From the NCBI GenBank assembly GCA_024226235.1, contig JAAELW010000217.1:1-33742 (forward strand): DNA of 33,742 nt. The letters are read 5' to 3'. This DNA is from a bacterium. GTDB lineage: Bacteria; Myxococcota_A; UBA9160; UBA6930. Made by a program: the position numbers and the translations under genes. This document shows positions 1 to 28,160 of this stretch, in pieces; the stretch's first letter is position 1, and the number at the start of each line of letters is the position of its first letter. The notes under the pieces were generated by a model. The model had not been told where the DNA came from, searched no databases, and worked only from the letters and a program-made list of their open reading frames with translations.

Positions 1-2917
1 CACTCAACGAGGAGAGGTTCCCGATGGCGTGACGGCCCGAGGCGCTCACCGAGGCGACCAGGCTCGTCGGGGCCCGAGGCGTCGTCCGCCGGGCCACCTC
101 GTAGGGCAGTGCCATGGCCGAGTTCACCACGAAGCGGAGCTCACTGTCGTCGAGGGGAGCCCAGAGTGCCCAGTTGGCTCCCACCGCTCGCAGCTCGCTG
201 CAGCGCGCCTCGTCGGGCCTGGAACCGACCACCGCCAGGGTCGGTGCCTCTTCGGCGCCGGACGCCGCCAGACGCTGCATGGCTCTGCGGATGCAGTCAA
301 GCGGCGTGGCGGGGCTGATGACGACACTGCGGATGCGGCCCTTTTCCTGCCCCGCCAACAACAACGCCTCGTCCGGGAAGCGCGTGTAGAGCACCAGGAC
401 TCCCAGCCGGGTCAGTCGCAGGGCCACGGGCCCGAGGCTGCCCTGCTCATCGTCGATCAGCAACGCGTAGCGGGAGATTTCTGATCCCGGCTGCGGCTTG
501 GCGCCGGCCACCGCGGGAAGCTCTGAGTCCGAGAAGCCCGGCAGATCGTCATCGTTGCTCTCGCTGGCCGAGGCTCGCGGTTCGGCAGTTTCGTGCGATG
601 TCGACTCGCGCTCCCATTGCCCGTTCTCGAAGGCCGTAGCGGGAACTGGCTCACCCAGGGCGAAGCCCTGGGCCTGGTCACAGCCGAGATCGAGCAGGGC
701 AGCCGAGAGAGCCGGGTCGTCGATGCCCTCGGCCACCACCTTCAACCCCAGGCTGTGGCACATCGAGACGACGGCCTGGATCACCCCGTGGACGGCCGGG
801 TCGTCGCGCATGTCCCGTATGAAGCCGCGGTCGAGCTTCACGGAGTCAAGGGGCAGCGAGGTCAGGCTGGCCAGCGCCGAGTAGCCCGTACCGAAGTCGT
901 CGAGCGCGATCGCGATGCCCATCCGTCGCAGCTCGCGAAGAGTGACCGAAGCGCTCTCCAGATCGTCGATGAAGGAGCGCTCGGTGATCTCGATCTCGAG
1001 CAGGCCGGGGTCCACCTCGTGCTCTCGAAGCGAGCTGACCACCCATTCGATGAAGTCCGGGTTGGAGAGCTCCGGCCCGGGCACGTTGATGGCAACGGGG
1101 ACCAGCTCCAGGTCGTTCGCCTGCCAGGCGGCGATCTGTCTGCAGGCCTCCGCCACGACCCAGCGGGTGATCTCGGCGATCAGCGGGGTGCCCTCGGAGA
1201 GCGGAATGAAGCGCGCAGGAGACACCTTGCCCAGATGGGCGCTGTCCCAGCGCAGCAGCGCCTCGCAACCGACCAGCTCCTGACTCGCGAGGTCGAACTT
1301 GGGCTGGTAGTGGAGATCCAACTCGCCCGCGGCCACGGCGCTCGCCAGGCGCTGCTTGGTCTCGGCCGTGCGCTGCGCCACCTCCGCCTGCTCCGGGCGG
1401 AAGCGGTCGTAGCAGTTGCCCCCGCGCGCCTTGGCGCAGTAGAGGGCCGCATCCGCGCGACTGATCAACGCCTCGGGGTTGCGGCCGTCTCGCGGGAAAC
1501 GGGCGATACCGATGCTGGCGCGGTTGAAGACGTCCTGGTCGTCCACCCAGAGCGGTTTGCAGATGGTCTGGAGGATCCGTTCAGCGATGATCTGGTCGTC
1601 GTCGGGGTCGGCATTTTCGGTGAGCAGTACCGCGAACTCGTCACCACCGATCCGGGCGATCTCCCGCACGACGGGCTTCGCACGGGCCTTGCGAAGCTCC
1701 TGTCGCAGCCGTTGGGCAATCGCTCGCAGCAGGGCATCGCCGGCCGCGTGACCCAGGTTGTCGTTGATCTCCTTGAAGCCGTCGAGATCGAAGTAGAGCA
1801 GGCCCAGGGTGCAACCGGCGGCCTCGGCCTTTTCGATCTCCGCTGCCAGCGTGTCCATGAAGTGGCGCCGGTTCGCGAGACCGGTGAGGTTGTCGTAGTA
1901 GGCGAGGCGCGTGAGACGATCCTCGATCTCCCGGGTCGAGGTGGTCTCCCGCAGCGCCAGCGAACGGGCGCCCCTGGGCCATCGATCGCCGCGCAGCGGC
2001 GAGATGCTGACCTCGAAGTGTCGGCGGGTGCCATCCGCCAACATCGCGAACTCACCGTGCGCGGCGTCGGGGTCGGCAAGCAGCGGCACCAGTTGGCTCG
2101 GCAGGACCGCTCCGCCCTGCTTCAGCCCTCCAAGATCGTCCGGCAGGCCCAGCATCTCGCGCGCGGTCGTCGACGCGGCGACCACCAGACGGCGATCGTC
2201 CACGATGAGCACGCCGTTACCGAGCAGATCGAGGGAGCCCACACCTGCTTCGGAGAGCAATCGCGGCTGACGATCGATTTCGAGCACCCAGGCCAGCATC
2301 ATCACGCTGCCCACCGCCGCCATGGGGACGACCTCGAAGATCGGCTCGGGCACGGGAAGGAGCAGGTTGACGGCGGCGAAGCCCAGCGGGCAGGACACTG
2401 CGCCGAGGAGGCCTGCAGCCTCCAGGCGGCGCGATCGCCATCGGCGGTGGTAGACAAGGATCGTGCCGACCATTGCGGCCCCGGCACACGAGATCGCATA
2501 GCCCGCTTGCCCCTGGCCGGCGAACGCCAACGGCCCGACATCCTGCGAGGTCACATCCAGAAAGAGCAGGAACAGCGGCGGGATCACCAGCGCCGTCAGC
2601 AGGGCCCAGCCGAACCTGCGGCCCGACGCCTGGATGACGGTGGCCAGCGCGGCAGCGGCTGCCAGGGCCCGCAGGGCCTCGGCCGCAGGGTGCAGAAGGA
2701 TCCACTCCGCCGCCCCCGGCCCTTCGAGGGCCGCCGTGACGAGGAGCCAGCCGGACAGTCCGGCGAGAAGCCACACCAGCGAGGCGCGATGGTTGGCTCG
2801 CGCGAACAACGGCTGGGGTCGCCCCGATTGCATGCGAAACGCCACCCGCAACGCCATGGTGCCTGCGAGCAGCCCAGCAGCCGTGAGACCGCCCGCGGTC
2901 AGGTGGTGGATCGACAT
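1..2917 (-). CDS. Membrane-anchored GGDEF-EAL protein with REC-like and PilZ-like C-terminus (3' end cut by window)
   Basis: The reading frame is open from an ATG at 2917 to the window edge (972 codons, no stop). Residues 1-195 are largely hydrophobic with several membrane segments, followed by a PAS-like stretch. The GGDEF domain has an intact GGDEF at residues 424-428, but no RxxD inhibitory site precedes it. The EAL domain has EALLRW from residue 552, EITERS, DDFGTGYS from 673, VKLDRGF and QGF, so it is probably a competent c-di-GMP phosphodiesterase; the usual AEGVE reads AEGID. From about residue 812 a receiver-like fold begins (ALLIDDEQ), but the expected phospho-Asp strand reads VVISPATP. 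The end shows RTTPR (944-948, an RxxxR) and NLSSL, the layout of a PilZ c-di-GMP-binding domain. The enzyme activities are family knowledge; the PilZ call is inference because its end is missing. The ribosome site is weak, so the start is less sure than the frame. Confidence 0.88.
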   Translation of the reverse strand, partial: MSIHHLTAGGLTAAGLLAGTMALRVAFRMQSGRPQPLFARANHRASLVWLLAGLSGWLLVTAALEGPGAAEWILLHPAAEALRALAAAAALATVIQASGRRFGWALLTALVIPPLFLLFLDVTSQDVGPLAFAGQGQAGYAISCAGAAMVGTILVYHRRWRSRRLEAAGLLGAVSCPLGFAAVNLLLPVPEPIFEVVPMAAVGSVMMLAWVLEIDRQPRLLSEAGVGSLDLLGNGVLIVDDRRLVVAASTTAREMLGLPDDLGGLKQGGAVLPSQLVPLLADPDAAHGEFAMLADGTRRHFEVSISPLRGDRWPRGARSLALRETTSTREIEDRLTRLAYYDNLTGLANRRHFMDTLAAEIEKAEAAGCTLGLLYFDLDGFKEINDNLGHAAGDALLRAIAQRLRQELRKARAKPVVREIARIGGDEFAVLLTENADPDDDQIIAERILQTICKPLWVDDQDVFNRASIGIARFPRDGRNPEALISRADAALYCAKARGGNCYDRFRPEQAEVAQRTAETKQRLASAVAAGELDLHYQPKFDLASQELVGCEALLRWDSAHLGKVSPARFIPLSEGTPLIAEITRWVVAEACRQIAAWQANDLELVPVAINVPGPELSNPDFIEWVVSSLREHEVDPGLLEIEITERSFIDDLESASVTLRELRRMGIAIALDDFGTGYSALASLTSLPLDSVKLDRGFIRDMRDDPAVHGVIQAVVSMCHSLGLKVVAEGIDDPALSAALLDLGCDQAQGFALGEPVPATAFENGQWERESTSHETAEPRASASESNDDDLPGFSDSELPAVAGAKPQPGSEISRYALLIDDEQGSLGPVALRLTRLGVLVLYTRFPDEALLLAGQEKGRIRSVVISPATPLDCIRRAMQRLAASGAEEAPTLAVVGSRPDEARCSELRAVGANWALWAPLDDSELRFVVNSAMALPYEVARRTTPRAPTSLVASVSASGRHAIGNLSSLS

Positions 2918-3203
2918 ACTTGCCGTAAGTGTCCAGGAGCGCAGAGCTGCACTCCGAACGTGTCGGACGTCCCGCAACCAACCTGTAGGGGCGTCATCCG
3001 CGCAAAATCACCTTCTGGCAGCCATCCCCCCTGGGTCACTCGATGGTCGGAATCCAGGGCTTCAACGAGCCTGGCGGGGCGCTGTGGCCTTCTGCTCCGG
3101 CAGCGTGCGTAGGATCGTGATCAACGCCCCGGCACTGTTTCCAGTCAGCAGAACGACCAGGCTCACAAGATTTCCACTCTAGCCAGTACCGAACAGGGGA
3201 AGG
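2918..3203. other. Intergenic region upstream of the GGDEF-EAL gene
   Basis: There are 286 bases between the GGDEF-EAL start and the stop of the small membrane gene. I see no convincing gene, riboswitch or terminator here. Base composition changes inside it: GC-rich up to about 3110, then AT-richer. It presumably holds the promoter of the GGDEF-EAL gene, but no clear -35/-10 pair stands out. Confidence 0.4.
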
Positions 3204-3581
3204 TCACTTCCCGGAGATTTCCATGATGATGTACGAATTCAGAAATGCAAAAACAAAAAGGCTGAGGACTGTCTCCTTCAGGAAATAGGCATTGAACATT
3301 CCCTTGTTCTTTGACTTGTCTAGAACGTTTGGATTGAATGTCCAGAACACTCCATTCCAAATGGGTGACACATTGATGAAAGGAATTCGTTCCGTCACTA
3401 CTCCAAATTTTCCGCTGGCACATATTCTTCCCAACCATATGCAGCAAGGAAGGGTGGTCACCATCATGGACTGGGCCTGACCCTTCGAAAGAAGAATCCA
3501 AAGCACGCAATATATGACGAACTGTATCGGGAGGCCGTAGAAGAGGTAATAGAGGTAGCGGGACTTGGAGCTGGCGTTCAT
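3204..3581 (-). CDS. Small hypothetical membrane protein in an AT-richer patch
   Basis: A 125-residue protein starts at ATG 3581, preceded by TAGGATTGAA, a reasonable AGGA ribosome site at normal distance. Two or three hydrophobic segments are visible: residues about 10-32 (start of an apparent signal or first TM), 37-55, and a C-terminal segment around SLFVFAFLNSYIIM. I do not recognise the family. Base composition is clearly lower in GC than the genes on both sides, and codon use is correspondingly relaxed, which suggests recent acquisition. It is flanked by non-coding DNA on both sides (169 and 286 bases), so it is probably transcribed alone. It may be a small integral membrane protein of unknown role; no catalytic motif is visible. 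Confidence 0.6.
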   Translation of the reverse strand: MNASSKSRYLYYLFYGLPIQFVIYCVLWILLSKGQAQSMMVTTLPCCIWLGRICASGKFGVVTERIPFINVSPIWNGVFWTFNPNVLDKSKNKGMFNAYFLKETVLSLFVFAFLNSYIIMEISGK

Positions 3582-11111: not shown

Positions 11112-13304
11112 ATGCGAATCCATTCGGCTGCTCTGGCTCTACTGATCTTGCTCGCGCCGGCGGCCCACGCCACGGCACCTGCCGTTCCGGGCGGCTTCAC
11201 CTACCAGGGTGTCCTGCTCGACAACCTGGGGCAGCCGCAGACCGGCCCCGTGGATCTCACGATTCGACTCTGGGACCTGGGATTCTCCGGAACGCTCCTC
11301 TACAAGCAAGACCGCGACAACACGACCCTGGTGGATGGCGTATTCTCCGTCCTGATCGGACCCACGGGCATCGCTACGGATGTCCCGACCAACCCGCTCA
11401 CCACGAATCTGGTCGATGCCCTCAGCATGGATCTCGGAGCCTCGGGAGCCGTCTGGATCGAGGTATCCGTCGATGGCAATGCGCCCCTCGGTCGCAACCA
11501 ACTGCAGGCGGTCCCGTTCGCGGTGAAGGCGGAAACGGCTGAGCAGGCGACGAATGCGACCAACATCCTCACGGCTGGCGGTATGAGCGGAGGCATCCTC
11601 GATTCGATCTGGCTGGAGTTCGATTTCGATGGTGGAGCGCCTCCGAACGACGATCCCAGCGAAGGAACCGGAGACACGGATTCGGATGGAACGCCCAACT
11701 TCCTGGATGCCGACAACGACGACGACGGCTTCAGCGATACCGTCGAACTCAGCCAGGGCTCGGACATCAACCTGATCACGCCCCGAATCGATTCGTTCTC
11801 GGGAGTTGGATCCGAGTTCATCGCCCTTCCGCTCACGGCGACGGGCAACAGCTTCGACGCGGCCATGACCGTTACGATTGGCGGCACTGGAGTCTCTCCC
11901 ACAGCGGTCACCCCCACGAGCTTCGACTTCGTGGCGCCAGCGATTCCGGAGGGGAGCTATCCCGTCGTCGCGACCCATCCAAACGGGGAGTTCGGCTCCG
12001 CAAACCTCACCTACCTCGCACTCGTTCCCCAGATCACCTCATTCTCGGCAAACGGCTCGATCCTCGTTCCCGTCCCGATTACCGCGACAGGGACCGACTT
12101 CGACCCAGGGATGACCCTCACCGTGGGTGGCCTTGCCGTCACGCCGACCTCCGTGACGGCGACGAGCTTCGACTTCACTGCGCCGGTCATGCCATCCGGC
12201 CCGCATCCTGTGGCCATAACGGTCCCCGCAGGAGGGATGGCCTCATTGGATCTGACGTACGTCCTAGACCGGTCCATCTTCCCGTTCGACCCGGTCGAAG
12301 CCGTGGCAATCGGGACAGACCAGCTCTTGACTCATCTCGACGCAGACTACTTCCGGGACACGGTGGATGACGGGCAGGTCGTCCTCGGTCCGCTGCAGTC
12401 GATCCCATCCTCCGAGGATGGCACCACCTCGGTCCACTGGGATTCCACGGGCCGTCTGGCTGGGTTGCGTGTGAATTCGAGCACCAACATGACCGAACTG
12501 ATCATCGATACGGACCTCGACGGAGATTTGGAAGCCGCCGAGGCCACCGCGATCGAGAGTATCGGCAGCGACCGAACGCACGGTGTGAGCCTCATCCACG
12601 ATGGCTCCGACAGGCCTGCCTTCGCGTACCTCCGGGCCACGTCGTTGAATACCCGCCCGCAGGTTTATCATGACCGGGATGGCAACGGGGATTTCGCGGG
12701 CCCGAACGAGTTCGTCATCGTCGAGTTCCGCGCGGGCTCCACGATCGGCTCACCGGCCCTCGGAGAACTTGCGGCCGATTCGGTCGCCCGGTTGGCTTAC
12801 GTTTCCGATGCCGAGTTGGCCGGCGAGCTTCGCGTTGCCTGGGATCGAAGCGGTGACGGCGACTACGCCGATACGGTCGGCACGAACCCCGAGAAATTCG
12901 TAGCCGCCACCACGCTACCGCTCTGTCTGGGAACGGATTTTGATGGCTCGGATGCCCTGGTCATCGTGTATGGCGACGTCTACGGGCTCCACCTGCTGCA
13001 TGACACCAGCGGCGACGGCGACTTCAACGATGCTGGAGAGAACACCATACTCGCCCCCGTCGGTCTGGTGGACACAGCGACGGGTTGCGACGTGGACGCC
13101 AGCGGAAGCGGCCTCGCCATTGCCGCCACCGACGGAGCCAACATGGCCCTGCTCGTCGATCGCAACGGCGACGGCGACTTCGGCGACACCAACGAGAACA
13201 CCCTGGAGAGCACCACGACCACGAGCCCGATCGCAGTGGAGCGCCTGGGGAACGGCACGGTGGTCGTGCAGACACCGGAGGGCGTCGTGGAGGATCCGAA
13301 CTAG
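11112..13304 (+). CDS. Secreted multidomain protein with IPT/TIG-like repeats and Asp-rich calcium-type loops
   Basis: A 730-residue protein starts at ATG 11112 with a GGAGGAG ribosome site and a signal peptide ending near AHA (residue 20). Order of parts: a beta domain that begins FTYQGVLLDN and ends LQAVPFAVKAETA, a module I associate with many secreted surface proteins; a TSP3-like acidic loop DTDSDGTPNFLDADNDDDG; two IPT/TIG-like repeats (each about 75 residues, starting IDSFSG and ITSFSA); then a C-terminal region with recurring DRDGNGDF, DRSGDGDY, DTSGDGDF and DRNGDGDF loops spaced roughly 52-58 residues. These loops are the kind that bind calcium. No autotransporter, LPXTG or PEP-CTERM anchor is seen at the end. 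It is likely a surface or extracellular adhesion or matrix protein; partner of the upstream lipoprotein by position. Confidence 0.78.
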   Translation: MRIHSAALALLILLAPAAHATAPAVPGGFTYQGVLLDNLGQPQTGPVDLTIRLWDLGFSGTLLYKQDRDNTTLVDGVFSVLIGPTGIATDVPTNPLTTNLVDALSMDLGASGAVWIEVSVDGNAPLGRNQLQAVPFAVKAETAEQATNATNILTAGGMSGGILDSIWLEFDFDGGAPPNDDPSEGTGDTDSDGTPNFLDADNDDDGFSDTVELSQGSDINLITPRIDSFSGVGSEFIALPLTATGNSFDAAMTVTIGGTGVSPTAVTPTSFDFVAPAIPEGSYPVVATHPNGEFGSANLTYLALVPQITSFSANGSILVPVPITATGTDFDPGMTLTVGGLAVTPTSVTATSFDFTAPVMPSGPHPVAITVPAGGMASLDLTYVLDRSIFPFDPVEAVAIGTDQLLTHLDADYFRDTVDDGQVVLGPLQSIPSSEDGTTSVHWDSTGRLAGLRVNSSTNMTELIIDTDLDGDLEAAEATAIESIGSDRTHGVSLIHDGSDRPAFAYLRATSLNTRPQVYHDRDGNGDFAGPNEFVIVEFRAGSTIGSPALGELAADSVARLAYVSDAELAGELRVAWDRSGDGDYADTVGTNPEKFVAATTLPLCLGTDFDGSDALVIVYGDVYGLHLLHDTSGDGDFNDAGENTILAPVGLVDTATGCDVDASGSGLAIAATDGANMALLVDRNGDGDFGDTNENTLESTTTTSPIAVERLGNGTVVVQTPEGVVEDPN

Positions 13305-13310
13305 GTTTCA

Positions 13311-13386
13311 TGGAGCGCGAGACGGGACTCGAACCCGCGACCCTCGGCTTGGGAAGCCGATGCTCTACCAACTGAGCTACTCGCGC
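13311..13386 (-). tRNA. tRNA-Gly, anticodon CCC
   Basis: On the minus strand a full cloverleaf can be drawn. The acceptor stem is GCGCGAG/CTCGCGC. The D arm contains AGCTCAGTTGGTAGAGC. The anticodon stem TCGGC/GCCGA has loop TTCCCAA, giving anticodon CCC. The T arm contains GGTTCGAGTCC. The discriminator is T and the CCA end is encoded (13311-13313). The anticodon reads GGG glycine codons, which are used in GC-rich genomes. Its 3' end lies seven bases beyond the stop of the convergent secreted-protein gene. The upstream same-strand gene is the ExeA-like ATPase, 60 bases away. Confidence 0.95.
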
Positions 13387-13446
13387 GCGGAGGAGGAGGG
13401 TCGCACGCGGGTCCTCGTGGGGCAAGCCGGGCTGGGCGGTTCCGAT

Positions 13447-14604
13447 CTACTCCTTGACCAGATCCACGAACAGGTCTTCGAGTTCGCCGCGCGCAGGCGG
13501 CTCGTCGCCCAGGAGCTGATCTCTGCCTGTGCCGGACGGCGCGGGCGAGGGTGCCGCGGGCGGCGGCTGCAGAGCGGACGGTGAGTCATCGTGCCATCGG
13601 GCATCTGGCTGCGCCGCGGGGTCGGCCGCGGTGGCCACCGGCGGCTCGGTATCGGACGCGATCACTTCGGCCATCCGGTAGCCAACAGCTTCAGGTGCGC
13701 TCGCCGCGGGCGCGATCGGATCGATGGAAGCTGGGGATGCGGGTGCGGACCGATCCTGGGCGGGTTCTTCCTCATCGCCCTCTTCTTCCACGGCCCAGGG
13801 CCGCAGCTCAGCAGTGGCCCGCTCTACGTCACCCGCACTGGCCGAAACACGCCCGGCCAGATGCGCCTCGAACAATGCGTTGTCCGCCAGCGTGTTCAGG
13901 TAGCGCGGCACACCCTTCGAGGCCTTGATCAGGGCCTGGACGGCGGAAGCATCCAGGATGGCAGGGTTGCCCCCAGCGGTGAGAATCCGGTGGCTCAGGT
14001 ACTGGACGGCATAGGTCGCGTCGAACGGCTGCAGCTGGATGCGTTGGTCGACTCGGTCGCGAATCGCGGGCTCGTCGGCGATGGCATCGTCAAGGCTTTG
14101 AAGGCCGACCAGCACCAGACATAGCATCCGGCGGTCTTCGTATTCCAGATTCAGCAGGCCCCGCAGCTCACCGAGCAAACCCTGCTCAGCGAGAACCTGC
14201 GCTTCGTCGAAGATCAGCACGGTCTGGCGTCCGTCTTCGCGCACGATGGCGAGTTGCTCGTAGATCTGGGCCATCAGGGCCTGACGTTCCTCAGCGGGCT
14301 CTTCGACGCCAAGCTGGCGTGCAAAACGATCGAGGATCCAATGGCCATCCGTCACGCCGGGAATCGGCACGAGCATGCAGGCCTCGAAGACATCCTCTTC
14401 GAGCGCCTCGAGGAAGTGGCGGACGAGCACGGTTTTGCCCACACCCCCGGCACCGGTGACCACGGAGAGCCCCTTGCCCTGGAGCGTCGCGCGCATCAGG
14501 CGGCGCTCTACGTCCTGGTGAGCGGGCGACTCGTAATAGAAGGCAGGCTGGGACTCGTTCGAGAAGGGATCCCGGCTGAGCTGGAAGGTCGATAGATGTT
14601 CCAC
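13447..14604 (-). CDS. ExeA-like AAA ATPase
   Basis: The start is GTG 14604, 15 bases after the stop of the large TPR gene; GGAG lies somewhat far upstream. The 385-residue protein opens with FQLSRDPFSNESQPAFYYES, typical of ExeA/GspA-type ATPases, then Walker A GAGGVGKT (about residues 51-58), Walker B VLIFDEAQ and a sensor region with RVDQRIQL. After about residue 275 it changes to a Pro/Ala/acidic linker that ends in a short conserved-looking tail, LEDLFVDLVKE. No transmembrane helix, SPOR or peptidoglycan-binding domain is visible, unlike full ExeA or DamX. Relatives help large envelope machines such as secretins cross or assemble at peptidoglycan. Being last in a block that descends from pilQ, a role with the T4P machine is likely but inferred. 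Confidence 0.85.
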   Translation of the reverse strand: MEHLSTFQLSRDPFSNESQPAFYYESPAHQDVERRLMRATLQGKGLSVVTGAGGVGKTVLVRHFLEALEEDVFEACMLVPIPGVTDGHWILDRFARQLGVEEPAEERQALMAQIYEQLAIVREDGRQTVLIFDEAQVLAEQGLLGELRGLLNLEYEDRRMLCLVLVGLQSLDDAIADEPAIRDRVDQRIQLQPFDATYAVQYLSHRILTAGGNPAILDASAVQALIKASKGVPRYLNTLADNALFEAHLAGRVSASAGDVERATAELRPWAVEEEGDEEEPAQDRSAPASPASIDPIAPAASAPEAVGYRMAEVIASDTEPPVATAADPAAQPDARWHDDSPSALQPPPAAPSPAPSGTGRDQLLGDEPPARGELEDLFVDLVKE

Positions 14605-14619
14605 GGCGGGATGGTGCTC

Positions 14620-17600
14620 CTAGACGAATGAAATTTTCTTGCGGCGGCGGGGCTTCTTGGGCGGCTCGGGCTCATCGGCCGCTTCGACCTGCGTCGCCGG
14701 TTCCGGCTCGGGCTCGGATTCCGGTTCGGGCTCTGGCTCCGGTTCCGGCTCCATCTCGGGTTCCAGCACCAGTTCGGATTCAGGCGTCAGTCCGGGTTCT
14801 GTGGAATCGGACTCTGGCTCGTCGGGTTCATCACTCTCGGATTCGCCATCGTCGTCGTCTTCCAGGAAATCGTCGAAGGATTCGTAGACCGGCTCCTCGG
14901 GCTCATCTGCCACCTCTTCCTCGAGGCCGGAGGGACTGTCCGCAACGAGATCGTCGAAGCTCTCGTATGTCTCTTCGCCGGTTTCGTTCTCTTCCTCCTC
15001 CGCTGCTACGGGCTCGGACAGATCATCGAGTGCCGCGATCTGTTCATCGACTTCGGGGAACTCCGGGTCGAGGTTCTTCACGGCCTCGAAGGCCTCACGT
15101 GCCCGCGGCACATCGCCGACGCCTGCGTACGCCCGGCCGAGATCGAAGCGCAAGCCGATCTGCTGCTCCTCCTGGACCCCGGGCAGACCCAACGCTTGCT
15201 CGAGATGCGCCACCGCATCGATGATCCGACCCAACTCGAACGCACAGAGGCCCATCATGTGCAGACAGGGCAGCTTTCTTGCCTCCGCACCCATGGCCGC
15301 CTGGAACTCGACGATGGCGTCCTCGTGCAGACCCATCTCCTTGTAGGCGATCCCGAGGTCGTAACGGGCCTCGAAGTCTCCATCTTCGAGAGCGCCCTCG
15401 ACGCCCTGCTTGAAGGCGGCAAAAACTTCTTCGAAGCCCTCGCCCTCCGTTCCGGCAGCCAGAGGCATGCCTGCACCGGCTTCATCGTCGAGATCGAACG
15501 CATCGGACAATTGTGCGGCCAGGTCGAATCCCGCAGCGTCGTCGGACGCCGCTTCGAACACGACGGGGGCAGTCACCTCTGCTTCGGTAACCCTCGCCGA
15601 AGCATCCTCCTCGAGGAACGCAGCATCCGCGATCCCGATAGCCTCGGATTCCGGCGTCTCGGGCTCCGCAGTCTCGGACTCCGGCGTCTCGGGCTCCAGA
15701 ACCTCCGGCTCGGCTTCCTCGGACGGAGCGACCTGCACCGTCTCCGCAGCGGAATCCTCGTCGGCAGTCTCCGGTTCGACGACATTCAGGATCGGACCCG
15801 TGTCCTCATCCGGATCACCGCCGAACTCTGCCACCGGTACCGGTGCCGGATCTTCGGTCGAGTCATCCTCGTCGTCGAAAATGTCGTCACCCACCAGATC
15901 GACCGGTTCGGGGGTGTCCTCCTCCGCCAGCCCGGCACTCATCTCGATGCCCACGCCTGCAACATGCCCGGCGCTCGCGGCTTCGATTTCGCCCACCCGC
16001 AGCAATGCCCCGGGATGGCTCGGCGCGAGTGAGAGAATCCGCTCGTAGACGATGCGCGCCTCGTCCAGCATTCCCTGCTGATAGAAGAAGTCCGCCTCCT
16101 CCAGATCCTCGGCCATCTGGGCCGGGGTCGTCGCAGAGGACGAAGCCCCCGCCACCTCATCCGAGCGCTCCAGCGACACCTCGCCTTGGGATTCCTCGAA
16201 GACTGCATCTCCGAGTCCGACAGCTTCCTCGTCATCGTCGAGAGGACTGTCGAGCACCGGGTCCGAGATTTCGATCCCGACAGCGTCCTCGCTATCGGTG
16301 GAGACCTCCATCGGGCTCTCTTCGACCGCCTCGAGTCCGCAGTCCACGTCGTCGGCGACCTCGGGCATCACGGACTCAGCGGTCACGGGTTCGGCTGCAA
16401 GCGGCTCGGGCTCGGAAGCCGGAGGATCAATCGCCAGCTCCACCTCTCCGGAGAGATCGAACTCGGGTACGAGTTCCTCCTCTTCCACTTCAGCATCACT
16501 GTCGGCCTGCGGGGCCAGATCGATTGCGATTTCGTCTCCGGCCAGCTCCAGAACGTCTTCCGATTCATCGAGCGGCTCGGAATCGTCAAGCTCCACATCC
16601 ACATCGAACTCGATCTCTACATCGGTGCTGGTTCCGAGTGTGTCCGCATCAGCTTCTGCAACCGATGCGAGCGAATCGTCTTCAGCATCTGATCCGAGCG
16701 AATCGTCTTCGGCATCTGATCCGAGGACGTCGTCCTCGATCTCCAATGCGATGGAATCATCTCCGGTATCCGACCCGAGTGCATCATCATCCAGATCCGA
16801 TCCGAGGACATCGTCCTCGATCTCCAACGCAACGGAATCATCTTCGGCATCCGATGCAAGCGCATCGTCTTCTACATCCGATGCAAGCACATCGTCTTCT
16901 ACATCCGACGCGAGCACATCGTCTTCCGCATCCGATCCGAACGCATCGTCTTCGATCTGGGCGATCGGCTCCGATTCCGGGTCGGGCTCGGACTGGAGTT
17001 CGAGATCGGATTCGGGGGGAACCAGGGCTTCGGCCCGTTCGGCATCCAACACTGCCACGCACTGCCGGAGGCGGTCGAAAGCCTCCGCATCACCGGCCTG
17101 GCCGGCAGCCTGAGCACCGCGCTCGTATGAGGTGACTGCGTGCTCGATCTGACCCGAGGCCTCGAGCGCCTCACCCAGCTTTGCGAAGGCGGCGACACTC
17201 GCCGGATCCTGCCGCACGATTGCACGCAGGCTGGCGATCGCACGATCGTGCTTTCCATAGCGGAGATAGACGCTGGCCTCTGCCAACAACTGCTCGGGAT
17301 CACCGTCGACTTCGGGAACGACCTGGGTCTCAGAAGCGTCGACCTGGGGCAACGGCGGGAGACTCGCGTCTTCCACCTCGGTGTGCTTCTGATTGCTCTC
17401 TCCGAGAGGACTTCCAAGAGACATCCCGTTCGGGTCGAATGTAGGCTCTCCGGCCTCGGCTCCGAGGTCTTCCACCGTCGAACCGAGCAACTGGTCATCG
17501 GCCACATCCTCTGCGCCGGAGTCACTCACGGTCGCCGGGGCAACGAAGCGCTGGGTGATGTCACGAGCCACATCATCATTGCCGCGCTCGCGATGGATCT

Positions 17601-18387
17601 CGGCAGCCCGTCGATAGGCGTCGATGCTCTCCGAGTCGTGGCCAAGCTTGCCACGGGCCTCACCGAGCAGCAGCCATGCATCGGGCTCGTCCGGTTGCTG
17701 TTCGATCATCAAGTTCGCGGTCTTCTCGGCTGCCTCGAACTTGCTGGAATCGAGCCGTGAGCGTGCTACCGAAGCGAGCAGATCGATGCGGTCCGGTGCG
17801 AGCTCGAGCACGCGAACCAGAACCCGGATGCGATCTTCTTCTGCGCCCTGGCGGTCGAGCTCTGCAGCCACCTCTTCGAATTCGGAAATCGCCTCTTCGT
17901 TGCGGTCTTCCTGGCGGAGCAGGTCGGCCACCTTGAGGCGACTGTTGGTATTCGAGGGATCAAGGGCTGCCATACGCCGCAGCAGGTCGAGCGCATCATC
18001 CTTGCAGCCATTCTGGTAGTGGACGTCGGCGGCGGTCTGAAGGGTGACCATCGCATCGGATTGCAGGCCCATCCGCTGGTAGAGGTCCGCCAACGGCACG
18101 AGTACATCCGCGCGCTTGTCGTCGATCTTGGTGATCTGCTTGTAGAGCGCGACCGCCTTGGCATCGAAGCCGTCTCTCATGAACGACTCGGCAACCTTCA
18201 GGTACGCGGCGACTGCCTCGTCCCTTCGACCACGCTTCAGCTCGATGTCGCCGATCTTGAGACGCACGTTCGCGTCTCTCGGATCAGCCTTCAGCAGGAT
18301 CTGGTAGTCCTTTAACGCCTTCTCGAGCGCACCTTTCTGAAGGTGCTTCTGAGCCGACTGCAGGATCTTCCGCTTGTTGATCGCCAA
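14620..18387 (-). CDS. Large acidic TPR protein (FimV-like layout, cytoplasmic)
   Basis: The start is taken at TTG 18387 (start of MAINKRKILQ), preceded by GAGGGGCCTC at good spacing; this matches the usual N-terminus of such TPR proteins, whereas the frame up to 18438 adds 17 unlikely residues. The product is about 1255 residues. TPR units fill residues 5-285 (for example KALKDYQILLKADPRD), and another block is near 370-460. Eleven tandem 9-residue repeats of EDDVLASDV type follow, then a long Glu/Asp/Ser-rich stretch with one isolated TPR (MLDEARIVYERILSLAPSHP). A C-terminal TPR set (YDLGIAYKEMGLHEDAIVEF) precedes a second acidic tail with EP repeats that ends in the basic PPKKPRRRKKISFV. 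There is no signal peptide or membrane helix. The acidic-plus-TPR design resembles FimV, a polar organiser of T4P in Pseudomonas, but LysM and membrane parts are absent, so homology is not claimed. Confidence 0.85.
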   Translation of the reverse strand: MAINKRKILQSAQKHLQKGALEKALKDYQILLKADPRDANVRLKIGDIELKRGRRDEAVAAYLKVAESFMRDGFDAKAVALYKQITKIDDKRADVLVPLADLYQRMGLQSDAMVTLQTAADVHYQNGCKDDALDLLRRMAALDPSNTNSRLKVADLLRQEDRNEEAISEFEEVAAELDRQGAEEDRIRVLVRVLELAPDRIDLLASVARSRLDSSKFEAAEKTANLMIEQQPDEPDAWLLLGEARGKLGHDSESIDAYRRAAEIHRERGNDDVARDITQRFVAPATVSDSGAEDVADDQLLGSTVEDLGAEAGEPTFDPNGMSLGSPLGESNQKHTEVEDASLPPLPQVDASETQVVPEVDGDPEQLLAEASVYLRYGKHDRAIASLRAIVRQDPASVAAFAKLGEALEASGQIEHAVTSYERGAQAAGQAGDAEAFDRLRQCVAVLDAERAEALVPPESDLELQSEPDPESEPIAQIEDDAFGSDAEDDVLASDVEDDVLASDVEDDALASDAEDDSVALEIEDDVLGSDLDDDALGSDTGDDSIALEIEDDVLGSDAEDDSLGSDAEDDSLASVAEADADTLGTSTDVEIEFDVDVELDDSEPLDESEDVLELAGDEIAIDLAPQADSDAEVEEEELVPEFDLSGEVELAIDPPASEPEPLAAEPVTAESVMPEVADDVDCGLEAVEESPMEVSTDSEDAVGIEISDPVLDSPLDDDEEAVGLGDAVFEESQGEVSLERSDEVAGASSSATTPAQMAEDLEEADFFYQQGMLDEARIVYERILSLAPSHPGALLRVGEIEAASAGHVAGVGIEMSAGLAEEDTPEPVDLVGDDIFDDEDDSTEDPAPVPVAEFGGDPDEDTGPILNVVEPETADEDSAAETVQVAPSEEAEPEVLEPETPESETAEPETPESEAIGIADAAFLEEDASARVTEAEVTAPVVFEAASDDAAGFDLAAQLSDAFDLDDEAGAGMPLAAGTEGEGFEEVFAAFKQGVEGALEDGDFEARYDLGIAYKEMGLHEDAIVEFQAAMGAEARKLPCLHMMGLCAFELGRIIDAVAHLEQALGLPGVQEEQQIGLRFDLGRAYAGVGDVPRAREAFEAVKNLDPEFPEVDEQIAALDDLSEPVAAEEEENETGEETYESFDDLVADSPSGLEEEVADEPEEPVYESFDDFLEDDDDGESESDEPDEPESDSTEPGLTPESELVLEPEMEPEPEPEPEPESEPEPEPATQVEAADEPEPPKKPRRRKKISFV
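16657..16953 (-). repeat. Eleven 27-bp in-frame tandem repeats
   Basis: Within the large TPR gene the minus strand encodes eleven successive 9-residue units built on EDDxLxSDx (EDDVLASDV, EDDALASDA, EDDSVALEI, EDDVLGSDL and variants). The period is 27 bases throughout, so copy-number change would keep the frame. Two near-identical larger segments (units with ALEI followed by EDDVLGSD) indicate duplication of a multi-unit block. Confidence 0.9.
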
Positions 18388-18439
18388 GAGGCCCCTCGAA
18401 CCCGAGAGCGTGACCAGCCAAGTGGGGGGGCTGGGCATC

Positions 18440-21842: not shown

Positions 21843-24800
21843 CTAGCTGCCGAGCTCCGAGTTGACCACGATGCGCGGGGTCACGAAGACCAGGAGTTCC
21901 TTGCGGATATCCCGGACCTCGTTGTTCTTGAACGCGTTGCCCAGCAGCGGGATCTTGTGGAAGTACGGCACGCGGCTCTCGGTCTCGCTCTTGTCGACGA
22001 CATAGATGCCGCCGATCACCAGAGTCTGACCGTCCTTCACCAGGGTCTCGGTCTCCGCCTCGTTCTTGGCGATGGCCGGCGAGCCCGTGGGCGTCTCCAC
22101 GCTGGTGTCGGGCGCGTTCCGCTGCACCGCGATCTGCATGATGATGCTCTGATCCGCGGTGATGTGCGGCGTCACGTCCAGGCGCAGGACCGCATCGATG
22201 AACTCGAGCTTGGCGTCGCCGTTCTCGAAGGTCTGGAAGGGAATCGAGACACCTTGCTCGATGCTCGCCTTCCGGTTGTCGAGGGTGACGATGCGCGGGC
22301 TCGAAATCACCTTGCCCTCGCCGTAGCTCTCCGCTGCCTCGATCCGGGCCTCGACGTTCAGGCGCTCATCCAGGATGAAGGCGCCCAGGTCGAGGAGACC
22401 GTTCGGGATCGAGGTGATCGGGTTGGCCACGGCCACCTTGTTGAGGTTGTCCAGACCCAGGTAGTTGGAAGAGTCGTGGAAGAGGATGTCGTTGCCCAGA
22501 CCCAACCGCTCGTTCGTCTTGACCGGGCTGGAATCGTTGAAGCTGTCGGTGTACTGCTGGACACCGAAGGCCCAGGTCGCACCCAGTTCCTTCGTGAAGT
22601 CCAGGTTCGCCTCGACGATCTTCGCCTCGATCATCACCTGCGGCGTCTGCGTGTCGATCGCCTTGATGAGGGCCGTGGCCTCGTCGATCACCGACGCGAT
22701 GTCCTTCAAGATGACGGTGTTGGTGCGCTCATCCACGTCCACGCTGCCGCGGGCGGTGAGGAGCCGCTTTACCATCTTCTCGATCTCGGACACATCGGCG
22801 TAGTTCACCGGCTGGAGCTTGACCACGAGGTCCTCCAGCTTCTCCTTGGCGCGACGTTCCTGCAGCCGCGACTCCTCCTCGGTCTTCAACAGATCCGAGG
22901 AAGCGATGCGAAGCACGTTGCCCACCCGGACGAAGCCCAGGCCCCGCGTCAGGAGCACGACGTCCAGCGCCTGGTCCCAGGGCACGTCCACGAGGCGGAT
23001 CGTCACCTTTCCGGCTACCTCGTCCCCCGCGATGATGTTGAGGTCGGAGACCTCGGCGATCAGGCGGAGGACATCGTCGATCTCGACGTCCTTGAAGTCG
23101 AGCGAGATGCGACGGCCGGTGTAGGCCTTGCCGTTGACCAGACCGCCCTCGGCCAGGATCTCGACCGAATCATCATTCGGATCCATCGAGGCCGGCACGG
23201 AATCACTCGGCACCGGGGCGGAGGCCACGTCGGAAAGCATCGGAATCTCCGAGGCCTGCTGTGTGCTGGTCTCGAAGTCCAGGAAGAGCAGTGCGCCCTC
23301 CTGCGTCACGACCGGCTTTGCCCCATCCTGGGCTCGGATCACGACCCGCACCTCGGGCTCGGCGGCCTCCGGCTGCTGGAACGCTGTGACGAGAGAGACG
23401 GAACCGGGTGCATCAGGTGCGATGCGCACGGCTGCGTCCGGATCGATCGTGGCGCCCTTCAGACGGATGACCGTGGTGTCGGGCGACGGGTTCGACGTCA
23501 CGTACTCGGCCGGCCCCTCGGTCACGACCACGACCCGTTCACGGGCCTCATCGCTCTCGAGCTGCACTCCGAAGACGGTGAGCGTTGCCGGTGCAGCTTC
23601 CTCGGCTGCATCGAACGCCTCTTCCTCGGCCCAGACCTCGGCCGTCTCCGTCGCCGCGGGCACATCCTCCACTGCCTCCTCGGCAGCGGGATCTCCGGAC
23701 ACGCCATCTTCGACTGCCGCCACTTCCGGCTCTGAAGCCTCAGACTCGGATGCGTCGGTTTCGGACGCGTCGGTTTCGGAAACCTCGGTCTCGGTCGCCA
23801 CGGGCTCAGTATCCGCGCTTTCGGTAACCACCGGCTCGGTATCCGCGCTTTCGGCAACCACGAGCTCGGTATCCGTGCTCTCGGTAACCACGAGCTCGGC
23901 AGCCGCAGACCCGGTGTCCTGGTCTTCAGCAAGCTCCTCCGGATTCGTCTGCTCTGTCTCGATCGGAGCCGAAGCCACCGGGAGAAGCGGAGAAGCCACA
24001 TCGCCAAGACCGAGCCAGAGGCCCGTAGCCACAGCAATCACCCGAACATCGTCGAAGCCCTGGGCCTCGTCGGTGCCATCGAACACCACGCGCACCTTGT
24101 CCTCGTGCTGGCCCACGCGGATGCGCGCAACCCGGTCACCGGACACGGCAAGCTGAGATTCCTCCACCTCACTGGTCAGACCCGGCAGATCGACGACCAG
24201 TCGGCTCGGATCCTCGAGGCCGAACCAGCTCGCACCTTCGATGCTTCCGTCGGCATCCAGCTGAACGGTCAACTCGGTACCCACGGCCTCCGCCACGACA
24301 CCTGTCAGGATCGTCGCGGGCGTCATCGGTACTTCGGCCTCGGCCTGGACCGACGCCGCCTCTTCCCCAGAGGTTTCCGTCACCGCCCAGGGGTCGGCTT
24401 CCGGAGTCGACTCCGATATCGAGGCGGTTTCCGCCTCCGTGGTCGACCCTTCGGAGCTCACAGCACTCACTCGGATCTCGATTCGGTCTTCGAGGTCTAC
24501 GACCGTATAGTCACCGGCAGCCGCCAGCGATACTTCGACTCGCGTGGACGAGGCGCCCTCGTGCGAGAAGCTCTCGACCGTGACTTCGTCGATCGTTCCA
24601 TCGTAGATGGCAATCGCAGGAACCACGTCACCGGCGGATACCGCAGCCAGATCGACCACGATCCGAGACGGCTCTTCCTGCCTGAATGCGTTGTAGACCG
24701 GCTCGGTGAGCCCAATCAGGCTCACGACCGTCGCATCCCCATCCGTCTCAACCGTCACCGAAGACAGCGCCCCCGATGCATCCACGACCGGTGCCGGAGT

Positions 24801-24896
24801 CGGCACCGATGCGCAGGCGAGAAGGGAGGCCATGCAGATGGCGCTCACCGCGAGCCCCACCATTCCAAAATTTCCGAACCTGGTGCTAGCGAACAT
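21843..24896 (-). CDS. pilQ: Type IV pilus secretin PilQ
   Basis: PilQ is the outer-membrane secretin through which the pilus passes. ATG 24896 is preferred (1017 residues), with GAGGGAGGG eight bases ahead; GTG 24905 overlaps the pilP stop and is an alternative. The signal peptide ends in lipobox LLAC (Cys 28), so this PilQ is a lipoprotein. Order: AMIN-like domains at about 43-145, 195-290 and 438-540 for peptidoglycan binding; an acidic Ser/Thr/Glu linker at 310-437 with four 10-residue tandem repeats; a secretin N0/STN part near 590-670 (ISLDFKDVEIDDVLRLIAEV); an N1/KH-like part near 690-755; and the secretin core from 755, with VISSPRIVTLDNRKASI and VPYFHKIPLLGNAFKN. At over 1000 residues it is longer than most PilQ proteins (about 700-900), mainly from the third AMIN part and the linker. 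Confidence 0.95.
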   Translation of the reverse strand: MFASTRFGNFGMVGLAVSAICMASLLACASVPTPAPVVDASGALSSVTVETDGDATVVSLIGLTEPVYNAFRQEEPSRIVVDLAAVSAGDVVPAIAIYDGTIDEVTVESFSHEGASSTRVEVSLAAAGDYTVVDLEDRIEIRVSAVSSEGSTTEAETASISESTPEADPWAVTETSGEEAASVQAEAEVPMTPATILTGVVAEAVGTELTVQLDADGSIEGASWFGLEDPSRLVVDLPGLTSEVEESQLAVSGDRVARIRVGQHEDKVRVVFDGTDEAQGFDDVRVIAVATGLWLGLGDVASPLLPVASAPIETEQTNPEELAEDQDTGSAAAELVVTESTDTELVVAESADTEPVVTESADTEPVATETEVSETDASETDASESEASEPEVAAVEDGVSGDPAAEEAVEDVPAATETAEVWAEEEAFDAAEEAAPATLTVFGVQLESDEARERVVVVTEGPAEYVTSNPSPDTTVIRLKGATIDPDAAVRIAPDAPGSVSLVTAFQQPEAAEPEVRVVIRAQDGAKPVVTQEGALLFLDFETSTQQASEIPMLSDVASAPVPSDSVPASMDPNDDSVEILAEGGLVNGKAYTGRRISLDFKDVEIDDVLRLIAEVSDLNIIAGDEVAGKVTIRLVDVPWDQALDVVLLTRGLGFVRVGNVLRIASSDLLKTEEESRLQERRAKEKLEDLVVKLQPVNYADVSEIEKMVKRLLTARGSVDVDERTNTVILKDIASVIDEATALIKAIDTQTPQVMIEAKIVEANLDFTKELGATWAFGVQQYTDSFNDSSPVKTNERLGLGNDILFHDSSNYLGLDNLNKVAVANPITSIPNGLLDLGAFILDERLNVEARIEAAESYGEGKVISSPRIVTLDNRKASIEQGVSIPFQTFENGDAKLEFIDAVLRLDVTPHITADQSIIMQIAVQRNAPDTSVETPTGSPAIAKNEAETETLVKDGQTLVIGGIYVVDKSETESRVPYFHKIPLLGNAFKNNEVRDIRKELLVFVTPRIVVNSELGS
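23791..23910 (-). repeat. Four 30-bp in-frame tandem repeats in pilQ
   Basis: Four consecutive 30-base units encode 10-residue repeats of the type TELVVTESTD, TELVVAESAD, TEPVVTESAD, TEPVATETEV in the linker between the second and third AMIN-like domains. A shorter 15-base SETDA duplication adjoins them. Unit length keeps the frame when copy number changes. Confidence 0.85.
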
Positions 24897-24901
24897 CGAG
24901 T

Positions 24902-25441
24902 TCACCCTCCCTCAGACAGCCGAATGCGCATCACGATCTCTTTCTCGGTCTGGTCCCCGTGGAAGTCTTCGTACTTCTCACGGACCATCATCTCGCTATC
25001 CCCAATCGTGATGATGAGACCTTCATTCTTGCCGACACGATCACCTTCTTGGACGATGTAGGCTCTACCGGAAGGGTCGATAACCAGCGCACGCCTGGTT
25101 CCGCCCTCCCAGACAACTCCCGAAACGGACAGCTGGCTCAGATCGAACTGCTCCAGCGGGCCCTTCGCAGCCCTGTCGACTTCCTTGATCCGATCGAGCA
25201 CGAAGGACCGGAACGGGTCCCGCTTGCCGATCGGGTCGTAGACATAGGCGCGAGCGTCGGCGACGCTCGCCGCCGGCGAATCTTCCAGCACCGAATCCAA
25301 GACAGCAGCATCCTGCTTCGCCTCTGCCTTGCGTTGGGCCGCGGGTGCGGCGGCGTTGCCGGTGGCTGTCTCCTGACAGCCCACCGCTAGCAGCAGCATG
25401 GCGGCGCACCACGCGATGGCGGCGGACCTTCGTTGGCTCAT
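24902..25441 (-). CDS. pilP: Type IV pilus lipoprotein PilP
   Basis: PilP is the periplasmic lipoprotein linking the PilNO inner-membrane dimer to the PilQ secretin. ATG 25441 is preferred (179 residues): GGGAG lies six bases ahead and TGATG overlaps the pilO stop; GTG 25444 is possible. The signal peptide carries lipobox LAVGC with Cys 22. A flexible Ala-rich linker leads to the folded beta domain, with YDPIGKRDPFRSFVLDR (the RDPF motif typical of PilP), LSVSGVVWEGGTRRALVID and YIVQEGDRVGKNEG. Its stop overlaps the pilQ start region. Length and order are normal for the family. Confidence 0.93.
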   Translation of the reverse strand: MSQRRSAAIAWCAAMLLLAVGCQETATGNAAAPAAQRKAEAKQDAAVLDSVLEDSPAASVADARAYVYDPIGKRDPFRSFVLDRIKEVDRAAKGPLEQFDLSQLSVSGVVWEGGTRRALVIDPSGRAYIVQEGDRVGKNEGLIITIGDSEMMVREKYEDFHGDQTEKEIVMRIRLSEGG

Positions 25442-26100
25442 CACTTGCTCCCTCGTTTGCGAGCTCGCTTGCCCTTGCCCTTCGCATCCTCGGCCTCCAC
25501 GGCCCCAGGCACGGACTCGACAAAGCGGTAGGTCGTGGCCTGACCGCTGACTTTCAGAACCGTTCGAATCGTGTTCTCACGGTTGATCGCAATCTTGAGC
25601 TCACCCATGTTCACGATCCGAGGAAGCCGTGAGACCTCATCGAAGAACATCGCGGCATCGTGGAACTGGCCGGTGAACTCGATCTCGATCGGGACCTCCG
25701 CATAGAAGCCCTTGTTCACCTCGGCCTTGGGGCGAAAGCCCTTGAAGTCGAGGCCGGCGTTCTTGCCCAGACTCGTGATATCGGTCAGCAGGACCGGAAG
25801 CTCTTTGCTGTCCGGCAGCTGCCGAAGCGCCACACTGAGCTTGCGTTCGAGCGCAGCAATCTCTGCCTGCACTGCATCCTCGTTGCTGGCAACCGCCCTG
25901 ACCTCTGCGAGCTTGCGTTGAAGCTGCAGGTGTTGGTCGCCCACGGCGGTCAACTGCTGCTTCACTGGCAGGTAGAGGTAGTAGACATAGACGGCCCCGA
26001 TCAAGACGAGGATCACGGGTGCGATCGCCATCCGATAGGCACGGGGGAGCTTATTGAGCCGCTCGAGCTGCCCCTGGAACTGGTCTAGATTGAAATCCAC
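25441..26100 (-). CDS. pilO: Type IV pilus inner-membrane protein PilO
   Basis: The start is GTG 26100 with AGGAGAGACCG ahead; nine bases separate it from the pilN stop. The 219-residue bitopic protein has a short cytoplasmic N-terminus, one membrane helix (about residues 24-45), a coiled-coil (KQQLTAVGDQHLQLQRKLAE) and a periplasmic ferredoxin-like domain with LPDSKELPVLLTDITSLGKN and FDEVSRLPRIVNMGEL. PilO pairs with PilN to form the alignment subcomplex. A strongly basic tail (KGKGKRARKRGSK) is longer than usual. Its TGA overlaps the ATG of pilP. Confidence 0.95.
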   Translation of the reverse strand: MDFNLDQFQGQLERLNKLPRAYRMAIAPVILVLIGAVYVYYLYLPVKQQLTAVGDQHLQLQRKLAEVRAVASNEDAVQAEIAALERKLSVALRQLPDSKELPVLLTDITSLGKNAGLDFKGFRPKAEVNKGFYAEVPIEIEFTGQFHDAAMFFDEVSRLPRIVNMGELKIAINRENTIRTVLKVSGQATTYRFVESVPGAVEAEDAKGKGKRARKRGSK

Positions 26101-26109
26101 CGGTCTCTC

Positions 26110-26700
26110 CTACTGCCCAAGATCCACGGCCGCGGTCTCGACCGTGGCCGTTCGACGTTTCGGTGCTGCAGCTCTTGCGCTCACCTCGAAGGCGTTCAGT
26201 TTGAGCCCTTCCTTCTCCTTCGCTTCGGTGCTCAAGAGCTCCACTTTGGAGAAGTACGGCGATTGATTCAGCGCCGTCAGGAAGACCGCGACGAGCTCGT
26301 TATCGAGGCTCATGCCCTTGATGATGACCTTCACTCCGGAGGTCTCTACGTGGGTGATCCAGAGGCGGTCCGGAGCATGCGTAGCGAGCTCGTCCAGCAT
26401 ATGAACGGGGCCAGCCCGGCTCGCGAAGAGTCGTTCGATGACCTCGAGCTTCTTCTCGATCTCCGCCTTGGTTCGGCGGTATTCCTCGACCTGCGCGAGC
26501 TGCGGCCCGAACTGGTCGATCTGACGCTGGGTCTGCGCAGTGGCCGACTTCACTTCGGTCAGCTCGTTCAGCAGGCTCCAGTGGAAGAACCCGGTGATCG
26601 CCAGAGCCCCGCAGAGGGTCGCGGCCAGGCCGACTGCGAGCTGCCGAGCGCCAGCCTTGCGGCGCTCCTCGCGTACCGGAAGGAGGTTGATCGTAATCAT
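26110..26700 (-). CDS. pilN: Type IV pilus inner-membrane protein PilN
   Basis: The start is ATG 26700, which shares its A with the TAA stop of pilM (TAATG); a longer frame reaching 26877 lies within pilM and is rejected. The 196-residue protein opens with MITINLLPVREE, the conserved peptide that docks in the groove of PilM. Next come a membrane helix (about 20-41), a coiled coil (EYRRTKAEIEKKLEVIERLF) and the periplasmic domain with LWITHVETSGVKVIIKG and LNQSPYFSKVELLS. It forms a heterodimer with PilO. Size and order are standard. Confidence 0.95.
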   Translation of the reverse strand: MITINLLPVREERRKAGARQLAVGLAATLCGALAITGFFHWSLLNELTEVKSATAQTQRQIDQFGPQLAQVEEYRRTKAEIEKKLEVIERLFASRAGPVHMLDELATHAPDRLWITHVETSGVKVIIKGMSLDNELVAVFLTALNQSPYFSKVELLSTEAKEKEGLKLNAFEVSARAAAPKRRTATVETAAVDLGQ

Positions 26701-27767: not shown

Positions 27768-27788
27768 CGTCTCTCCTCCTTCCCGCCG

Positions 27789-28037
27789 CTAGTACCGCTC
27801 CAGTGCTTCGCGCACTGGAGGAGCGGGGAAGTTGCTGGGTGCCGGGCCGAAGACCTTGTCCTTGTCCACGACCTTGAGTCCGAGCGCGACCAGGATCTTT
27901 CGCTTCGTGTCCAGGCGGCACGGCCGCCCGGCCTCGATGCGATCGATGGTGAGGGTCGAGAGACCCGCCTTTCGGGCGAGCTCTGCCTTGCTCATCATCT
28001 GAGCCTCGCGAATGCGCTGTACGTTGTTGCTGGGCAC
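27789..28037 (-). CDS. Small XRE-family HTH protein upstream of pilM
   Basis: The start is set at GTG 28037 (82 residues), after a GGGGGGAG run; the frame up to 28226 has no domain support. It holds a compact HTH_3/XRE domain: NVQRIREAQMMSKAELARKA is helix 1-2, and GLSTLTIDRIEAGRP is the recognition helix region, followed by TKRKILVALGL. A short C-terminal tail ends PPVREALERY. It is probably a DNA-binding regulator of the pil operon that it heads, with the palindrome at 28145-28160 as a candidate site. The real start could be different by a few codons; the HTH itself is clear. Confidence 0.82.
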   Translation of the reverse strand: MPSNNVQRIREAQMMSKAELARKAGLSTLTIDRIEAGRPCRLDTKRKILVALGLKVVDKDKVFGPAPSNFPAPPVREALERY

Positions 28038-28144
28038 TGTCTCCCCCCAAGGTCGACTGCATGCCGGGTTGGGCGCCCCCGCCCGAACGCTCCCCCTATC
28101 GTCCCGTAGTTTCAGCGACTTGAGCGGTACAGTGGATGGTTCGT

Positions 28145-28160
28145 GGTGACGCAGGTCACC
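28145..28160. promoter_or_regulatory. Palindrome GGTGAC-N4-GTCACC in the divergent pil promoter region
   Basis: A perfect 6-4-6 inverted repeat lies roughly midway between the start of the XRE gene (108 bases) and the start of the NtrC-family gene (127 bases). It is a good candidate operator for the XRE protein or another dimeric regulator. No sigma-54 promoter consensus was found in this gap on either strand. Confidence 0.5.

Follow-up and report, generated by a model that had tools for sequence, protein, structure and literature searches.

What might a protein do that carries, in a single chain, domains for making, degrading and binding cyclic di-GMP (c-di-GMP), and is such a chain real and recurrent? 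The question is raised by a gene read at the left end of contig JAAELW010000217.1 (assembly GCA_024226235.1), from a bacterium of the UBA9160 lineage of the Myxococcota_A. This 33,742-nt contig is the whole stretch of DNA that was analyzed, hereafter the window, and G000 denotes the genome carrying it. A first-pass annotation, made from the sequence alone, described the product as a GGDEF-EAL enzyme followed by a pseudo-receiver and a PilZ domain. We found this order of domains to be right, and conserved: of 79 genomes from the order to which the bacterium belongs, at least 11, spread over five families, have it. The likeliest explanation, to which we give about an even chance, is that the gene encodes a membrane-bound PAS-GGDEF-EAL enzyme, mainly a phosphodiesterase, predicted to be tethered to its own phosphorylation-independent c-di-GMP reader. 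In other words, domains that are known one by one form an arrangement that recurs and is restricted to one lineage, built around a so far undescribed family of pseudo-receiver and PilZ modules (pREC-PilZ).

The gene lies in a minus-strand open reading frame (ORF) at 2..2977, of which 992 codons can be read. The frame is intact, has a gene-like codon composition and exits the contig at its left end; its first ATG, at 2917, matches the earlier placement. Pfam identified, both over the cut-off, a GGDEF domain at residues 359-521 and an EAL domain at residues 542-777. Two features absent from the first-pass annotation precede them: a PAS region, found as a sub-threshold Pfam match, and before it five transmembrane (TM)-like segments, found by hydropathy. 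These segments make it probable that the protein is membrane-bound. The same measure gives one to six such segments in the nine fused relatives whose N-terminal part can be read (the relative with a single one, L066, lacks its other end, where the contig stops).

The catalytic residues are informative on the activity of the enzyme. The EAL set (E-x-L-x-R, N, E, D-D, K, E, Q) is intact in the window protein, and every fused protein that can be read at a given site keeps it there (10 or 11 of 11 rows per site). The window protein also has the GG(D/E)EF motif with its substrate residues, and with P at position -9 and R at -6 it has no RxxD inhibitory site (I-site), which confirms the earlier description of intact GGDEF and EAL motifs without RxxD. 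Among the fused proteins with a readable motif, the cyclase signature is GGDEF in 6 of 10 (window included) and AGDEF in the other 4. Because the EAL residues are all retained while GGDEF is eroded in one branch, the activity shared by the fused proteins is probably c-di-GMP hydrolysis. The earlier statement that the protein "makes, degrades and binds" c-di-GMP thus describes its domain content, and should be taken as a prediction where activities are concerned.

The part following EAL is homologous to receiver (REC) domains, since profiles of the module match solved response regulators over the whole domain. The best E-value against the PDB was 1.4e-4 for a seven-row profile and 9.5e-8 for a 38-row profile built without the window. 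In the alignment, the window protein has Ser at the phospho-Asp site and Ala at the Lys site, and so the earlier claim of a receiver-like part devoid of the phospho-acceptor was well founded. The phospho-Asp is present in 0 of 41 family members, as is the Lys of beta 5, whereas all 11 ordinary REC-PilZ proteins taken from this order have both. The 41 members are 40 modules and one sequence fetched as a possible control that proved to belong. The ordinary set consists of 11 of the 15 weaker matches fetched, the other four being one family member, one repeat, one protein without a clear receiver and one divergent sequence. Given the missing Asp and Lys and the matches to solved receivers, the pREC is, judging from its residues, a receiver that has lost phosphorylation.

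The PilZ part of the module is easier to recognize. Pfam (E <= 0.01) found PilZ in 38 of 38 module members and Response_reg in none of the 38. The first motif, RxxxR, is R-T-T-P-R in the window protein; across the 41 family members its first Arg is conserved in 39 and its second in 40, and the motif is kept in 8 of the 9 fused proteins with a readable PilZ (L058 and L066, cut by contig ends, were excluded from the PilZ counts). The first-pass annotation had read a pattern RxxxR...NLSS, in which the RxxxR stands but NLSS is not the second motif. The latter, three residues on, is S-L-S-E-G-G in the sequence joined from the window and a second contig (C137, see below): the S and G of (D/N)xSxxG are kept and Ser replaces the D/N. 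Hence, the second glycine motif has its glycine but departs from the consensus at its first position. Such departures are frequent, since this position holds Ser in 17, Thr in 12, Asp in 6, Asn in 5 and Ile in 1 of the 41 family members.

To delimit the family, we used its module of about 236 residues. A search with the single C-terminal module gave matches in 52 of 147 genomes, and the seven-row profile (E <= 0.001) in 76 of the 79 genomes of the order, the weakest of the 76 being probably ordinary PilZ or REC-PilZ proteins. With the 38-row profile (E <= 1e-10), 257 of the 329 genomes of the phylum match. Among the matches listed, all scores above 75 bits in the phylum fall within the order; the best score outside is 74.4 bits, and matches there, from about this value downwards, are expected to be ordinary PilZ or REC-PilZ proteins. 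In a phylogenetic tree, a branch with support of 100/100 splits the pREC-PilZ family from seven canonical REC-PilZ rows. The family, as these comparisons delimit it, is undescribed and strong only in the order of the window. Most of its members are stand-alone proteins, four of them in G000 itself. One candidate member (G042:C317, L069) was left out as its receiver looked ordinary on inspection, and L067 and L068 gave no tblastn hit.

The fusion of GGDEF-EAL to this module was found in G000, G008, G023, G067, G072, G039, G036 and G055 and, cut by contig ends, in G043, G061 and G026. This count is a lower bound, as many assemblies are fragmentary. An apparent fused frame of 1012 amino acids in G001 (L053) was not counted, since there a non-coding frame runs into a stand-alone module. 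In the tree of the modules, all nine fused rows and one stand-alone row form a clade of 10 (89/84). In the tree of the GGDEF-EAL parts, the 10 fused rows also group together, albeit weakly (51/62); the support becomes 88/82 once one long-branched unfused row joins them. Both trees are compatible with a single origin of the fusion followed by losses. The 16 unfused relatives in the latter tree all stop 6-20 residues past EAL.

The window copy of the gene is incomplete, and the first-pass annotation had suggested completing its PilZ domain with the sequence left of position 1. Contig C137 of the same metagenome-assembled genome (MAG) supplies it: its final 187 bases align with the last 187 that the window has of the gene, 177 of them identical (95%), and both stretches end at contig tips (window 1-187; right tip of G000:C137, L011). 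The 143-residue frame of C137 contains a complete PilZ domain (Pfam PF07238, 41.8 bits for a cut-off of 22.5). The mismatch between the two contigs suggests two strains in the MAG that break the assembly, or a duplicated gene; the difference looks like strain variation. We searched for synteny in support of the junction. The dipeptidase-like gene of C137 has copies with 88-90% identity in G003 and G004, but the GGDEF-EAL-pREC-PilZ gene is not beside it in G003, and the contig of G004 ends within 170 bp of it and is hence uninformative. The short-chain dehydrogenase/reductase gene of the window is absent from the other four genomes of the genus. Synteny thus fails, which leaves the 187 bp overlap as the sole link between C137 and the window.

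One could therefore argue that the C-terminal part is not truly fused to GGDEF-EAL, or that C137 holds a different gene: the window stops inside the gene, the overlap has 95% and not 100% identity, and the gene is missing from the C137-type neighborhood in another genome of the genus. However, the same fusion occurs in one unbroken frame, with both ends on the contig, in seven other genomes (L050, L051, L052, L054, L055, L056 and L057). An assembly artefact is largely refuted by these orthologues, and we regard it as highly improbable.

The chain had been called uncommon in the first-pass annotation, and within what was sampled it is: PilZ follows EAL in 0 of 68 named GGDEF-EAL ORFs. At least 60 residues follow EAL in only four of these 68, two with CZB and two with REC domains. 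The scan of named organisms returned generic GGDEF-EAL proteins among the matches listed, and our searches of open-access literature showed no paper on a GGDEF-EAL-pseudoreceiver-PilZ protein. Older surveys list PilZ within multi-domain proteins bearing GGDEF or EAL, and the combination of GGDEF-EAL with PilZ as such may not be new. In PMC3131395 and PMC5013675, the wording "EAL-PilZ" refers to the FimX-PilZ complex, not to a fusion.

How might such a protein work? As we picture it, a PAS-GGDEF-EAL enzyme at the membrane, with c-di-GMP hydrolysis as its conserved activity, would have gained as C-terminal partner a member of the lineage-specific pseudo-receiver-PilZ family. The receiver fold would have been put to use, independently of phosphorylation, as a scaffold or as a surface for binding partners, and the PilZ domain would read c-di-GMP. 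The fusion would tie a local sink of c-di-GMP (possibly a source) to its own reader, which could report the immediate surroundings of the enzyme to a partner, set the activity of the enzyme, or both. Since stand-alone copies are many, the module can presumably act apart from the enzyme, most likely as a reader and docking unit.

Several observations weigh against this reading. The GGDEF motif is intact in the window protein, which could thus be a net cyclase. The D/N position of the second PilZ motif is Ser in 7 of the 9 fused proteins with a readable motif (Thr in one, Asn in one), so that binding of c-di-GMP by PilZ is not assured. In addition, RxxxR is without its first Arg in the fused protein L057, and in L051 the second motif has Gly where its Ser should be. 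Binding is still compatible with an imperfect second motif, since PixB of M. xanthus, as described in PMC8316039, has RxxxR but not the Ser of that motif and binds c-di-GMP. When the structure of the window C-terminus was predicted without an alignment, the predicted local distance difference test (pLDDT) reached 44.7, too low for use in a fold search. Finally, the 3' end given to the window copy comes from a contig with 95% identity and not from its own.

The first-pass annotation had proposed that PilZ-based feedback replaces the missing I-site, i.e., that PilZ binds the product c-di-GMP and switches the balance of GGDEF and EAL via the pseudo-receiver. A single chain does hold all the parts, none of the 10 fused proteins with a readable GGDEF has RxxD, and RxxxR is kept in most of those with a readable PilZ. 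Yet of 16 related unfused GGDEF-EAL proteins, 15 lack RxxD as well (as read from motif strings), and the loss of the I-site is therefore not tied to the gain of PilZ. In the four fused proteins with AGDEF there may be no synthesis to inhibit; as EAL is intact in them, a product-feedback brake on synthesis is unlikely as the shared role of the fused proteins. This leaves the feedback enzyme weakened, a possible but not favored reading that we consider rather doubtful.

Another reading, which we find somewhat less probable still, is that the GGDEF-EAL part supplies the response to c-di-GMP. Against this scaffold reading, in which pREC-PilZ would not bind c-di-GMP, RxxxR is kept here, unlike in PilZ proteins without such binding. 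In its favor, PMC8389850 describes FimX of X. citri as REC-PAS-GGDEF-EAL and PilZ as a bridge between FimX and PilB. Since FimX works on type IV pili together with these two proteins, the fused protein could, by analogy, be a covalent analogue of FimX and PilZ. Among solved chains, the PilZ part best matches entries titled "type IV fimbriae assembly protein". In G022, the stand-alone module L070, which is the only stand-alone row in the fused module clade, sits between two genes: a PilT-family ATPase gene just upstream of it, scoring 442.6 bits to TIGR01420, and a REC-PAS-GGDEF-EAL gene that follows after 13 bp. G056 has a degenerate REC-PAS-GGDEF-EAL frame that continues directly into a pREC-PilZ, itself degenerate. 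The window itself contains pilMNOPQ and a PilY1-like gene, but this cluster begins about 19 kb from the gene, too distant to count as evidence. A conserved linkage of the fused gene to type IV pili was rejected, since no T2SSE or PilM is among the matches listed on its contig in 12 other genomes, including a 331 kb contig in G036. Many stand-alone copies of the module also have other neighbors.

The gene row of G022 (L210:3156-8037) comprises a divergent canonical REC-PilZ, the PilT-family ATPase, pREC-PilZ and REC-PAS-GGDEF-EAL, and is possibly a FimX/PilZ-like unit. That of G056 (L061:1808-5365) comprises REC-PAS, then GGDEF-EAL without motifs, leading into a pREC-PilZ without RxxxR; from its residues, the whole pair appears degenerate. 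In flanks of up to about 5 kb, a GGDEF/EAL gene directly adjoins the module on the same strand at 2 of 20 stand-alone loci (L210, L216) and is found within 5 kb at two more (L224, L229). The last two, from two genera of the family (G000:C190 and G008:C22), share the order EAL-domain gene, MATE-like transporter, pREC-PilZ and enoyl-CoA hydratase-like gene, the genes being named by inspection.

Going further than the preferred reading of a phosphodiesterase tethered to its reader, we tentatively propose, as a possibility well short of even chances, a phosphorylation-blind REC-PilZ family whose receiver would be a fixed c-di-GMP-responsive relay. One branch would have become attached to a phosphodiesterase, so that sensor, enzyme, reader and output surface together make up a local circuit in one polypeptide without a histidine kinase, and the unfused pair could share an operon with a pilus retraction ATPase.

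We compared the protein with known systems. Its core aligns over about 440 residues with GGDEF-EAL hybrid phosphodiesterases, and its EAL catalytic residues are intact. The best NCBIfam matches, DibA (NF045675) and PRK10060, score 397.6 and 344.6 bits, well short of equivalog cut-offs of 980 and 782 bits, and unlike these enzymes the window protein has a pREC-PilZ tail and several TM-like segments at its N-terminus. Canonical REC-PilZ response regulators (e.g., L198 in G000) have the same two folds as the module, whereas pREC-PilZ lacks phospho-Asp and Lys and mostly has Ser or Thr at the D/N of the second motif. PixA of M. xanthus, according to PMC8316039, binds c-di-GMP, but its domain order is reversed (PilZ-REC). 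The NCBIfam paralogous domain TIGR02266 is matched by 38 of 38 module members (E <= 0.01); the two matches with scores shown, 27.5 and 32.3 bits, are far under its cut-off of 68.7. The FimX-PilZ-PilB system of Xanthomonas type IV pili also has a GGDEF-EAL protein working with a PilZ protein (PMC8389850). There, FimX and PilZ are separate and FimX is catalytically degenerate, with REC first of four named domains, whereas the window protein joins everything in a single chain, has its EAL residues intact and carries its pseudo-receiver beside PilZ. The c-di-GMP-binding pseudo-receiver of ShkA (Caulobacter) resembles pREC as a receiver fold without phosphotransfer in c-di-GMP signaling (PMC7010744, PMC12632262), but ShkA is a histidine kinase.

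With the fused protein, nature would provide a single-chain system for testing local c-di-GMP signaling, in which enzyme and receptor are bound to stay together. The effects of local and global c-di-GMP pools could be told apart by removing the tail or mutating it. The analysis also defines a family that Pfam sees only as PilZ and which, together with phosphorylatable cousins in the same order, is suited to the study of receivers that lose phosphorylation yet keep a function. The features of the gene are given in Table 1.

Table 1. Features of the fused gene in the window (positions in the window unless a locus is given).
Feature	Position	Strand	Basis and remarks
Coding sequence, PAS-GGDEF-EAL-pREC-PilZ protein	2..2917	-	972 codons from ATG 2917; in-frame TTG 2977; 3' end outside window
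Hydrophobic N-terminal region, five TM-like segments	2276..2782	-	Hydropathy; weak sub-threshold HisKA_7TM match
PAS-like domain (weak)	1985..2233	-	PAS_4 13.6 bits, under cut-off 23.1
GGDEF domain; motif GGDEF 1634..1648; without RxxD	1415..1903	-	Pfam 140.5 bits
EAL domain; motif EAL 1256..1264; catalytic residues intact	647..1354	-	Pfam 227.9 bits; residue table
Pseudo-receiver (pREC); Ser codon 314..316 at phospho-Asp site, Ala at Lys site	115..472	-	Profile searches, alignment; module match 2-472
PilZ domain start: RxxxR and SLS of second motif; rest off contig	2..91	-	C137 overlap, Pfam, alignment
3' end supplied by C137	L011:3092-3523	-	81 further codons to stop

Elsewhere in the window, the type IV pilus cluster (21843-33721) contains pilM, pilN, pilO, pilP and pilQ (an AMIN-bearing secretin), together with an NtrC-type sigma-54 response regulator and the PilY1-like protein of 1205 amino acids. 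At 3204-3581, between better supported genes, is a frame of 125 codons without a Pfam match, with a third-position GC of 0.60 as compared with 0.70-0.85 in the other chosen frames. At 11112-18438, an IPT/TIG-domain protein (730 amino acids), an AAA protein (385) and a tetratricopeptide-repeat protein (1272) are encoded in a row.
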